From Winogradskyella aurantiaca (lineage in GTDB: Bacteria > Bacteroidota > Bacteroidia > Flavobacteriales > Flavobacteriaceae): a DNA stretch of 64,000 nucleotides. The notes beneath the pieces were generated by a model. The model saw nothing but the letters and a program-made list of their open reading frames with translations. It did not search any database and was not told where the DNA came from. A program made the translations under genes and the position numbers. The stretch spans positions 186,001-250,000 of the forward strand of contig NZ_QKTV01000002.1 in assembly GCF_003362725.1 (NCBI RefSeq), read 5' to 3'. This document shows positions 12,598 through 16,280 of the stretch, in pieces. The first letter of the stretch is position 1; every line of letters begins with the position of its first letter.

Positions 12598-12626
12598 AGG
12601 CCTAACTTACTGTTAGGTCTTTTTTT
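12598..12626 (+). terminator. Intrinsic terminator of secA
   Basis: Arms AGGCCTAAC (12598-12606) and GTTAGGTCT (12612-12620), five-base loop, then six T. It also covers the stop codon of the convergent M23 gene. Confidence 0.85.
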
Positions 12627-13317
12627 ATGCTATACCCAAAAGTAAATTAGGATCTGGACAATTTTGCTTATAAAACTCAAGATCGCGTAAATTGGTCACA
12701 CCCGGGTAGTCCCCGCTATTTCCCTGTAAGTTTCGCATGATCTGAAAATGCAAATGTGGTGGGTAACTACCATTAACCGCCGCTTCCCCCAAAGTAGCAA
12801 TGACCTCTCCTTTTTTAATCGATTGCCCTTCCTTTTTACCTTCTAAGGATTCTAAGCTCAAATGCCCATACAAGGTGTAGAAACTCATATCGTCTATCCT
12901 ATGCTCAATAATTAAGGTAGGTCCATAATCGCCAAAATTGGTATTGTTTTTAAAACTGTGAAGTATTCCATCCAAGGGTGCATACACTAGTGTACCTGCC
13001 TCAATCCAAAGGTCCAGTCCCAAATGGATATTCCGTTCGGTCTCAGGGTTGGATTGGTTAAAATAGGTGCTGCGTTGGTAAATACCACGTTGCTCCAGGT
13101 ATCCGCCAAAAGCAATCTTAGCACCTTGTCGTTTTATTTCACTATTTACGAAGGATTCTAACTTAGAGGTATTGGAAACATCCACTCCATCTAATTCTGG
13201 ATTGGAAACAGAAAGATTTAAAGGGCAATAATCTTGTTTTTGAAAACTGGCTCCCAGGACAGGGAAAACATTCTTAGAAAGTAATTGTAAAAAGGCTCGG
13301 AATTGAGCTGTATCCAT
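12625..13317 (-). CDS. M23-family metallopeptidase-like protein without signal peptide
   Basis: 230 residues. The LytM/M23 fold is shown by HLGLDLW (zinc His and Asp), LYGHLSL and PPHLHFQ (the HxH zinc motif). In M23 enzymes these cut peptidoglycan cross-bridges, but this protein has no signal peptide or membrane segment. Its N-terminal 80 residues (with GGYLEQRGIYQRSTYF) resemble the M23 module found in large aminotransferase/kinase fusion proteins, so a cytosolic role is possible. Convergent with secA; its start is preceded by an inverted repeat around the -7 box. Fold confidence is high, role uncertain. Confidence 0.82.
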   Translation of the reverse strand: MDTAQFRAFLQLLSKNVFPVLGASFQKQDYCPLNLSVSNPELDGVDVSNTSKLESFVNSEIKRQGAKIAFGGYLEQRGIYQRSTYFNQSNPETERNIHLGLDLWIEAGTLVYAPLDGILHSFKNNTNFGDYGPTLIIEHRIDDMSFYTLYGHLSLESLEGKKEGQSIKKGEVIATLGEAAVNGSYPPHLHFQIMRNLQGNSGDYPGVTNLRDLEFYKQNCPDPNLLLGIA

Positions 13318-13391: not shown

Positions 13392-14966
13392 TTATTGCAT
13401 AAACACCTGGCTGAATTTTGCATTTAAGACGATGGATTTACCGCTACTTAAATCGCCAAGATTATAGGAAGACCCGCTTCCACCCTGCTGATCTGGATGT
13501 GAGAATTTAGATCTGTTTCCTTTATACTGAAGACTGTATGCTGCTTTTGGCAATGCGATACGCGCTTGTGAGTTCTCAACAATAAGTGTCAGATTACTAA
13601 ACGAATCGGCAATATTTAAAATATCCAAATCGCCAAAGCTACCATCGATCATGGCACTACCCAAGAGATTTGCCAATTCTACATTGGATGAATTAGATGT
13701 CAATATTAATCGCTCTGCTGAATCCAGGATTGCCTCATCAACATACTTTAAAATCAACTCTCCTTGCTTCCAGTTTTCAACTAAGACTGGCGCGTAAGAG
13801 ATATTGATGGAGGTAGATCCTCCATCAATTTCTGTTGCTGTAAAAGGTGCGTAGGCGACATCAGCTTTTAAATCGTGAATGACGGAGGCAAACGTTAATT
13901 CACCATGTCTTACATTCACTTTTAGCTTGGCCTTTTTAGGGATCTTTATTTTAATCACCTTCTTCACCTTATCAGATTTTGGGGCATAATACCCTCTAAC
14001 AGTCCTCGCTTCTCTTTGAGCCGCTCTTGCCGCTTCTCTAGCTTCCATGGCTTGAGCACGAACTTCTTCTCTTCTTTGATAACCTTCGGCTCTTTGTGCT
14101 TCACGCTCTATTTCTCTGGCCTGACGCTCAATATCTCTTGCGGTACGCTCCATTTCGCGCTCGTAGCGTCTTGCCCAGCCTTCCATTTCACGTTCAAACT
14201 GCTCACCAAATCGTTCTCCCCAGGCTTCCATTTTTTCAGCCCATTCTTCGCCAAATTGCTCACCAAATTCTTCTCCCCATTTTTCCATATCCTTAGCCCA
14301 TTCGCCTTCAAATCGCTTGGCATACTCTTTTCCCCAGGCTTCCATCTTCTCTTGATATTCAGAATCGGCAAACTTCTTTGCCCAGATTTCCATCTCGCGT
14401 CTAAAGTCCTTACCATACTTCTCTTCATACTCTTTACTCCACTTCTCCATATAAGCTTCGCCGTCTCTCTTATAGGCATCCACGTCAAATTCAATACTAT
14501 GAACACCTTCTGGGAATTCAGGTAGCTCAGGTAATTCTGGCATTTCGGGCATTTCTGGCATCTTTGGCATTTTGGCCATCTTTGGCATCTTTGGCATTTT
14601 GGCCAATTCCATTTCAAGATCTTGTAAATACACTGCATAATCAGCGTCTCTATGTACATATCCAGTGACAACTCGGTTGGATCTAATTGTTACCTTATCC
14701 ATTGAGCCGTTGACATCAAGGTCCCAGTTCTTAGCAACCTTTTCAAGTTCTTCCTGGCTCAATTCCGAGCTTTCCAGATAGGCTTCTACCTGAACTGTAT
14801 TCTTATTCCAGGTATCCACTTCAATTTCTACATAATTGGTGTTAAGATCGATGGTCACATCTTTATTAACCTCCAATGTTTGTTTTGTTTTGTTCACTTT
14901 CTGCTGGGCATTGAGGCTCATGGCAAAAAGGCACAAAAGGATCATTTTTAAATTTAGCGTTCTCAT
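13392..14966 (-). CDS. Secreted protein with MP-triplet and MExW repeats and a C-terminal beta domain
   Basis: 524 residues, not recognised as a named protein. Signal peptide 1-20 (MRTLNLKMILLCLFAMSLNA). Residues 30-115 look like beta strands. Ten triplets of the type KMP/EMP/ELP run from 123 to 152. A long charged helical stretch (155-325) contains six MExW repeats at 173, 192, 208, 227, 246 and 261, then an Arg/Glu/Ala-rich part. Residues 340-524 are strand-rich (VNVRHGELTFASV, SNSSNVELANL) and resemble the DUF4097-type beta-strand repeat. It is the third gene after an ECF sigma factor and a membrane protein, 40 nt from the latter, so it is probably an output or sensor of that pathway. Confidence 0.8.
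   Translation of the reverse strand: MRTLNLKMILLCLFAMSLNAQQKVNKTKQTLEVNKDVTIDLNTNYVEIEVDTWNKNTVQVEAYLESSELSQEELEKVAKNWDLDVNGSMDKVTIRSNRVVTGYVHRDADYAVYLQDLEMELAKMPKMPKMAKMPKMPEMPEMPELPELPEFPEGVHSIEFDVDAYKRDGEAYMEKWSKEYEEKYGKDFRREMEIWAKKFADSEYQEKMEAWGKEYAKRFEGEWAKDMEKWGEEFGEQFGEEWAEKMEAWGERFGEQFEREMEGWARRYEREMERTARDIERQAREIEREAQRAEGYQRREEVRAQAMEAREAARAAQREARTVRGYYAPKSDKVKKVIKIKIPKKAKLKVNVRHGELTFASVIHDLKADVAYAPFTATEIDGGSTSINISYAPVLVENWKQGELILKYVDEAILDSAERLILTSNSSNVELANLLGSAMIDGSFGDLDILNIADSFSNLTLIVENSQARIALPKAAYSLQYKGNRSKFSHPDQQGGSGSSYNLGDLSSGKSIVLNAKFSQVFMQ
14154..14450 (-). repeat. Six MExW helical repeats
   Basis: Codes for residues 173-271 of the secreted protein: six imperfect units starting MEKW, MEIW, MEAW, MEKW, MEAW and MEGW, spaced 15-19 residues, rich in Glu, Lys, Arg, Gly and Phe. 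Confidence 0.85.
14511..14600 (-). repeat. Ten proline triplets (KMP/EMP/ELP)
   Basis: Codes for residues 123-152. The charge switches from Lys to Glu halfway, KMP units first and EMP/ELP/EFP units last, giving an extended proline-rich spacer with a charge gradient. Confidence 0.85.
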
Positions 14967-15006
14967 GTTCGTTTTTTGATTTTAATTTATAATATGGTTG
15001 ATTTAT

Positions 15007-15570
15007 TTATAAAGTTGCATTGTTATCGGACTCTGTTTCAAGTGCTCTTATTTGGTCTTGTAAGCGCTCTAACAAATTGAGTCTCAATTTTAGATTGTTG
15101 ATTAATGCATCTACCGTTAAGGCATTAGGGCCATTCTCAGTCAACTCTTCAGTGAGTTTCTGATATTCTTTATTTAACTCTTCCAGTTTATTTAGATAGC
15201 CATCAAATAACTCTTTGTTTTCAGGAGTCAATTTGATTTTTGATAATTCAAGGTTGATGCTGGCTAAATAAAAATCTTCAACCTTCTTCAACTCTGGGGA
15301 CACATCACCTAAGGTGGTAAGGCTAGCTGTTTCCTGTTCTTTAGGTACTACAGGTTGTTCCGTACTACCAAATTGCAGCGCTCCATAGGACAGCCCTAAT
15401 AATATTACCACACTAGCAGCCACTCGCCACATCTTAAAGGAATTGGATCTTTTGGCAACCGGAAGTTCTTTATCCAGTTTTTCTAAAAATCGATCCTTGT
15501 GTCCTTCAGACATTTTTACATTACTAGCAAGGGTTTCGTTCTTGAATAATTCTCTAAGATCTTGTGCCAT
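15007..15570 (-). CDS. Single-pass membrane protein, probable anti-sigma factor
   Basis: 187 residues. N-terminal cytosolic part 1-46 (MAQDLRELFKNETLASNVKM), one membrane helix about 47-67 (MWRVAASVVILLGLSYGAL), then a periplasmic part predicted as long helices (about 88-180, KKVEDFYLASINLELSKI... LRLNLLERLQDQIRALE). No zinc-binding HxxxCxxC motif is seen. It overlaps the sigma factor gene by 17 nt, the arrangement expected of a sigma/anti-sigma pair. The role is inferred from topology and gene order; the periplasmic helices could sense an envelope signal. Confidence 0.72.
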   Translation of the reverse strand: MAQDLRELFKNETLASNVKMSEGHKDRFLEKLDKELPVAKRSNSFKMWRVAASVVILLGLSYGALQFGSTEQPVVPKEQETASLTTLGDVSPELKKVEDFYLASINLELSKIKLTPENKELFDGYLNKLEELNKEYQKLTEELTENGPNALTVDALINNLKLRLNLLERLQDQIRALETESDNNATL

Positions 15571-16105
15571 AACGTTGTTCTTTTAACTGGTCCTTTAATT
15601 TTGCTTTTCCTCTTGAGAGTTGTGTTCTTGACGCCACCTCAGAAATATTTAGTATTTCTGATATTTCCTGATGATCATACCCTTCAATGAGGTACAACAT
15701 GACCACGTAGCGGTATTTATCAGGTAAACTGGCTATGGCCTCTTTTACTGTTACTACAGTGACGTGGTCTTCCACCATCCATGCAGATTCCATAGGCTCA
15801 TCGACAACACTCATATGAACATCTTCCAAATCTATCAAGCGTTGCTTTTTAGATTTGAGAACATCAATACTTTTATTGATGACAATTCGTTTTAACCAAG
15901 CCCCAAACGTCACCTCTGCCTTATACTGGTCGAGTTTCATAAACGCTTTTATGAACGCTTCCTGAACAATATCCTCAGCTTCCATCACATCCTTTACAAA
16001 TCGCTTGGCCACTATTAACATAGCATCACAATACTGCTCGTAAAGTTTGAGTTGCGACGGTCGGTGATTTTGTTTGCACTTTTCAATTAGCTCTATTTGA
16101 AACAT
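15554..16105 (-). CDS. ECF-type RNA polymerase sigma-70 factor
   Basis: 183 residues. Region 2 is visible as AEDIVQEAFIKAFMKLDQY and AWLKRIVINKSIDVLKSKK; region 4 as ASLPDKYRYVVMLYLIEGYDHQEISEIL followed by the helix-turn-helix part SEVASRTQLSRGKAKL. No region 3 or extra C-terminal domain. First gene of a three-gene minus-strand operon with an overlapping membrane partner. ECF factors of this layout often activate their own operon, but I see no clear conserved promoter in 16106-16280 and cannot name its target motif. Confidence 0.92.
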   Translation of the reverse strand: MFQIELIEKCKQNHRPSQLKLYEQYCDAMLIVAKRFVKDVMEAEDIVQEAFIKAFMKLDQYKAEVTFGAWLKRIVINKSIDVLKSKKQRLIDLEDVHMSVVDEPMESAWMVEDHVTVVTVKEAIASLPDKYRYVVMLYLIEGYDHQEISEILNISEVASRTQLSRGKAKLKDQLKEQRYGTRS

Positions 16106-16280
16106 GCAGTGTTTGGTTTTTTTGATTAGTTACTCTAAAGACGAGACCTTTTTTCCTGTGTGACAAAAAATTTAATTTTTTTTTGAAATGGAACCTTAAT
16201 ATAATTTACAGCTTTGATCTCCGTTGATTTAGGGAATTGAATTATCTTTAGTTTGTTTTTTTCAACATGTGAATTTAACT

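Follow-up and report, generated by a model that had tools for sequence, protein, structure and literature searches.

A conserved flavobacterial ECF sigma/anti-sigma operon with an exported Toastrack-like protein, probably autoregulated and responsive to the cell envelope

The window, a 64,000-nt stretch of the Winogradskyella aurantiaca genome, carries three consecutive minus-strand genes, which encode an ECF sigma factor, a membrane protein and a secreted protein. A check of the open reading frames bears out the layout described in an earlier note on this DNA: the first two genes overlap by 17 nt and the third follows after a gap of 40 nt. The features discussed below are, in window coordinates:

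16136..16168, minus strand: predicted ECF promoter, TTTTGTCACA-N14-TCGTCTTTA; the last base of TCGTC lies 34 nt upstream of the sigma ATG
15554..16105, minus strand: ECF sigma factor, 183 aa; over the Pfam cut-off, with sigma2 at residues 21-87 and sigma4 at 120-170
15554..15570, minus strand: 17-nt sigma/anti-sigma overlap; translational coupling is probable
15007..15570, minus strand: membrane anti-sigma-like protein, 187 aa (orthologue family A2); no family over cut-off
15433..15570, minus strand: its cytoplasmic arm, aa 1-46 (alignment; AlphaFold2, low confidence)
15373..15432, minus strand: its transmembrane helix, aa 47-66 (sequence, AlphaFold2)
15010..15372, minus strand: its periplasmic part, aa 67-187 (AlphaFold2)
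13392..14966, minus strand: secreted Toastrack-like protein, 524 aa (Foldseek; hhalign with the sister protein, sec2)
14676..14903, minus strand: its N-terminal beta part, aa 22-97 (predicted structure; 42% mean family identity)
14499..14675, minus strand: its proline-rich P-[EK]-[ML] linker region, aa 98-156 (sequence, alignment)
13977..14498, minus strand: its amphipathic charged helical insert, aa 157-330 (MExW repeats, about 3.8 residues per turn)
13392..13976, minus strand: its C-terminal beta-helix part, aa 331-524 plus stop (pLDDT mostly above 90; 46% mean identity)
12625..13317, minus strand: optional fourth gene, M23 family (Pfam Peptidase_M23, 5.3e-17)

ECF sigma factors consist of sigma2 and sigma4 only, joined by a linker of fewer than 50 residues, and their own promoters carry AAC at -35 and CGT at -10 (PMC8103513). 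The window's sigma factor has just these two regions (Pfam Sigma70_r2, 4.4e-14, and Sigma70_r4_2, 7.8e-15, each over cut-off), with a linker of about 32 residues between them; the two Pfam matches uphold the ECF assignment made earlier. It also matches TIGR02937 of NCBIfam (3.6e-27) and is 56-75% identical to its orthologues.

The membrane protein is, as had been proposed, a single-pass protein with a helical periplasmic part: a single hydrophobic helix (residues 47-66) separates a short arm from three predicted helices. The arm contains two short helices, predicted by AlphaFold2 at low confidence, and a GHExRF motif that is conserved in the alignment; past the membrane, a flexible stretch leads into helices 92-111, 119-146 and 150-186, modeled by AlphaFold2 with a pLDDT of about 90. 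Searches against Pfam and NCBIfam returned no curated family and no anti-sigma model over cut-off, and none of the 299 Foldseek matches of the three-helix fold reached E ≤0.001. Two known classes were considered and rejected: a class I zinc anti-sigma (ZAS), because the protein has no Cys at all and hence no HxxxCxxC, as the earlier note had seen; and FecI/FecR, because the membrane protein has no FecR match. The proposed sigma/anti-sigma-like pair nonetheless gains support, the sigma factor from Pfam and its putative partner from position, topology and co-conservation; binding of one to the other would follow from family and topology.

With CnrY of the class II pair CnrY/CnrH, the protein shares a cytoplasmic arm of fewer than 50 residues with two predicted helices (PMC7406223). 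Unlike the CnrY/CnrH system, the window operon has no CnrX-like third component, and its membrane protein has no sequence match in the PDB. Could the operon be a metal sensor like CnrYXH, with copper bound by a Met-rich linker and the anti-sigma as the CnrY analog? The MxxM spacing in the linker and the CnrY-like arm (PMC7406223) speak for this idea; however, orthologues carry Leu, Phe or Val in place of the linker Met, and CnrX is reached only at a Foldseek E of 2.8. A metal sensor of this kind is scarcely credible.

The three genes form a unit, as computation supports. Sigma, anti-sigma and secreted protein follow one another in this order, on the same strand, in 19/19 other genera, all in the same family, and in 80/80 further contigs; the sigma/anti-sigma overlap measures exactly 17 nt at 89 of the 92 loci that allowed a measurement. 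The gene-order counts describe 99 loci outside the window's genome, and such constancy in order and overlap exceeds chance. The 80 named contigs were retrieved with the anti-sigma profile; many belong to Winogradskyella and Psychroserpens, and some come from the same genomes as loci within the 19. Gene order is therefore kept outside close relatives, a point on which the earlier note had made its proposal depend, and the linkage does not just reflect recent common ancestry, since orthologues of the third gene are as little as 28% identical. Loci L026, L028 and L030 share this arrangement in order and strand. Of 60 related genomes, 37 carry a relative of the membrane protein when the window system and its sister (see below) are counted together. 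The link of the secreted protein to the pair, which had been offered as inference, is likewise strengthened: the gene order is fixed and one conserved ECF promoter precedes the whole operon. The three-gene switch is present in many marine flavobacteria. At one locus (L032:591-1508) the third gene encodes 305 aa, with a stop right after the helical part, the long beta part being missing or frameshifted.

The sigma upstream regions have diverged save for one island, TTTTTTGCAACACT followed by TCGTCTTTAA, in which 14 bases separate GCAACA from TCGTC. The family promoter consensus is GCAACA-N14-TCGTCTTTA, with the AAC and CGT expected of an ECF promoter at -35 (GCAACA) and -10 (TCGTC). The strict motif occurs at 94 of 100 loci, in 0 reverse complements and in 0% of shuffles; a looser motif with the same fixed spacing is present at 99/100 loci, against 1/100 reverse complements and 0.3% of shuffles. 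The window's own -35 element, GTCACA, departs from the consensus.

How far would the sigma factor reach beyond its own operon? In the window's genome, the one site without mismatch is the operon promoter; allowing up to one mismatch yields 6 matches, against 6 for the reversed-pattern control. With a longer motif and up to three mismatches, 4 matches were obtained against 1 in the control, the operon site being the best. Scanning that genome revealed no second site as good as the operon promoter, which appears to be the sigma factor's only clear one there. Among the 60 relatives, the strict motif usually has a single occurrence per genome, the one at the operon, and several of the remaining matches lie within genes. 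From these scans we infer autoregulation with a narrow regulon, and, as the operon is its own predicted output, the secreted protein would be the main product. Another reading is that the operon promoter is merely the strongest in a wider envelope regulon that acts through weaker promoters outside the strict motif. Degenerate sites could broaden the regulon: the departure of the window's site from the consensus implies that degeneracy is tolerated, and the relaxed scan covered the window's genome only. Yet the strict matches away from the operon in the 60 relatives are singletons, each in a single genome, and the other three sites from the relaxed scan either lie within genes or face none, which makes a wider regulon unlikely.

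Two further copies of the motif were observed. One (L193, G001:C6:794017-794047) is a full copy beside a galM-like gene in a place where the three operon genes are absent; a galM-like gene flanks the operon in other genomes, and L193 gives the impression that the unit was lost cleanly, with its promoter left behind. The other (L247, G000:C17:366043-366072) is a mixed motif, TGTAACACTTCGGGTTTTTTTTCGTCTATA, 40-odd nt upstream of a small rhodanese-like gene. A rhodanese-related protein, YceA, is on the list for the ECF-type motif SM6 of Flavobacterium psychrophilum (PMC9723704); as far as seen, it differs from the L247 protein. SM6 targets have CGT in the -10 box and include one ECF/anti-sigma operon, THC0290_1774-1773 (PMC9723704). 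Both features recall the window operon; unlike the regulon predicted here, SM6 extends to genes for type IX secretion and to several other, unrelated loci.

The third protein starts with a typical signal peptide, read off the sequence, whose end falls between SLNA and QQ. The absence of a recognizable enzyme domain is confirmed, in that nothing exceeds the Pfam cut-off, and no curated NCBIfam family does either. Its description as a “repeat protein” holds in part: there is a P-[EK]-[ML] run, and MExW recurs at intervals of 15-19 residues, but a large part of the chain is beta-structure. Its predicted model is beta-rich, and the best Foldseek matches are 4qrk (prob 0.99, E 3.6e-3), then 3lyc, 3pet and 4opw, with low TM-scores; 4qrk and 4opw have been called Toastrack (PMC11237479). 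Since the 4qrk and 3pet alignments cover nearly the whole query and their targets have only about 215 residues, the helical insert probably interrupts a single beta-helix. In its model, the protein thus resembles the Toastrack (DUF4097/DUF2807) beta-helix fold, split by a linker and a helix; it is named only “Toastrack-like” because the E-values are modest and the Pfam cut-offs are not reached. Sequence searches took the same comparison less far: the window protein has no match over cut-off to the DUF4097/DUF2807 models (3/20 family members match DUF4097 at E ≤0.1), its profile (A1) aligns with the DUF2807 set (A4) over only 45 columns around the signal peptide, and no convincing match led to Toastrack through the PDB. 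DUF2884 identity was set aside: the match is weak in 10/20 members, and the window stretch lies in the helical insert and is taken as composition.

That two of the matched PDB entries, 3pet and 4opw, belong to a fold family named “putative adhesin” raises the idea of a surface adhesin controlled by the ECF pair. To our knowledge this old label rests on no test; it is the sole basis for an adhesion role, and the Pfam matches include no type IX sorting tail. The adhesion role suggested earlier is not supported, an adhesin being highly improbable. The helical insert is seen only in the window protein's family, the sister protein having no counterpart in hhalign; in 15/20 orthologues it is strongly amphipathic, repeating about every 3.8 residues, and in the other five it does not exceed shuffles. 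It is conceivable that the insert (13977-14498 and its orthologues) is a lipid- or LPS-binding amphipathic helix. Two of the 20 family members match apolipoprotein models weakly, probably through this insert.

A sister operon lies elsewhere in the window's genome (L039:3388-6317, G000:C24), divergent from the adjoining lon gene and kept in nearly all of the 20 relatives retrieved. It encodes a sigma factor, an anti-sigma, a 363-aa secreted homolog that has no helical insert, and a DUF2807 protein. The window and sister anti-sigmas are homologous (hhalign 99.9%), as are the two secreted proteins (hhalign 99.3%, E 1.8e-20), whereas the sister promoter is its own and different, TGTAACA-N16-ATCTWTA. 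Farther out in Bacteroidota, a single gene stands between a sigma gene and a Toastrack-like gene in 15/20 short-form loci; the anti-sigma models match this intervening gene in 12 of the 15, the exceptions being L149, L150 and L164. Similar modules recur across Bacteroidota. In the window's genome, a one-mismatch copy of the sister motif (L249, G000:C19:287749-287778) stands after a clpB-like gene and before a gene for an exported protein that looks TraB/GumN-like by eye.

What, then, might this operon do? We think it probable that it is an autoregulated ECF sigma/anti-sigma/Toastrack-like operon that answers to the state of the cell envelope, as the earlier note suspected; computation supports the promoter, the narrow predicted regulon and the fold resemblance. 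The 187-aa membrane protein would anchor the sigma factor at the inner membrane through its 46-residue arm, and its periplasmic three-helix domain would read an envelope signal that frees the sigma factor. The latter would then switch on its own GCAACA-N14-TCGTCTTTA promoter and raise sigma, anti-sigma and exported protein jointly, a positive autoregulation suggested by family and topology. The exported protein, a beta-helix scaffold bearing a long amphipathic helix, would most likely bind and stabilize envelope components and may additionally feed back on the anti-sigma; the nature of the signal and the action of this protein are guesses.

Feedback could also be the chief role. The secreted protein would then act mainly as an RseB-like ligand of the three-helix domain, with protective genes elsewhere or none, as might be expected from the strict linkage of the anti-sigma and secreted-protein genes and from an operon that is its own only clear target. 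Moreover, the evolutionary distances of these two proteins are correlated in excess of controls (partial r 0.55 with the two neighbors controlled, against 0.24-0.37, values that carry no significance test), which mildly favors contact between them. As mirror-tree signals go, however, this one is weak, and it leaves the sister operon's DUF2807 protein unexplained; a mainly ligand role is possible, if on the doubtful side.

The envelope-responsive operon favored here most resembles the Bacteroides ECF21/Dma system (Das-Dma): in both, a Bacteroidota ECF sigma gene, here typed to the ECF family level only, is followed by the gene for a membrane anti-sigma and by others. When Dma2 is lost, the strongest induction is that of its own operon, and Das2 also alters polysaccharide-utilization genes (PMC13088901); for the BcpT-responsive pair, envelope signals have been suggested (PMC9308784). 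Dma combines a tether with a C-terminal outer-membrane beta-barrel, whereas the window anti-sigma is short and has a three-helix periplasmic domain, the beta-structure residing in a separate exported protein. The 187-aa protein is not a Dma: in the AlphaFold2 model, it is all-helical past the membrane helix and has no beta-barrel. It is very unlikely that the two polypeptides together are a counterpart of Dma, in which the exported protein, by means of its linker and long helix, bridges the outer envelope to the three-helix domain, reports integrity through its position or occupancy, and has the control of its own level as its sole job. To the Toastrack proteins (DUF2154/DUF4097/DUF2807) of the PSP/Lia envelope-stress systems, the window protein is linked by fold resemblance and by an association with stress regulators (PMC11237479), and an operonically linked sigma factor is mentioned for another Toastrack gene context (PMC11237479). 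Toastrack has been argued to be intracellular (PMC11237479), whereas the window protein has a signal peptide for export and is interrupted by a linker plus a helical insert; membership in PSP/Lia is rejected, as the operon has no PspA, PspC or LiaF.

ECF/anti-sigma switches are a known kind; the present version and its exported protein are apparently unstudied. The literature searched contains no study of this operon, and papers on TamL depletion and on Zobellia polysaccharide responses held nothing usable on the induction of such an operon. Flavobacterial ECF systems are largely uncharacterized. In the window system, conservation goes together with a sharp promoter prediction, a predicted regulon that is nearly self-contained and, elsewhere in the genome, a paralogous sister under a different promoter. 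These traits make it tractable for asking what role an exported Toastrack-like protein plays and how two envelope switches that run in parallel are kept insulated from each other. New relative to the earlier note are the resemblance to the Toastrack fold, the probable autoregulatory promoter and the paralogous sister.

The optional fourth gene encodes an M23-family protein with no obvious signal peptide, whose best NCBIfam match, PRK06148.1, lies in the middle of a 1015-position model and is below cut-off. It is the next gene after the operon in 49/80 loci and stands apart from it in others.
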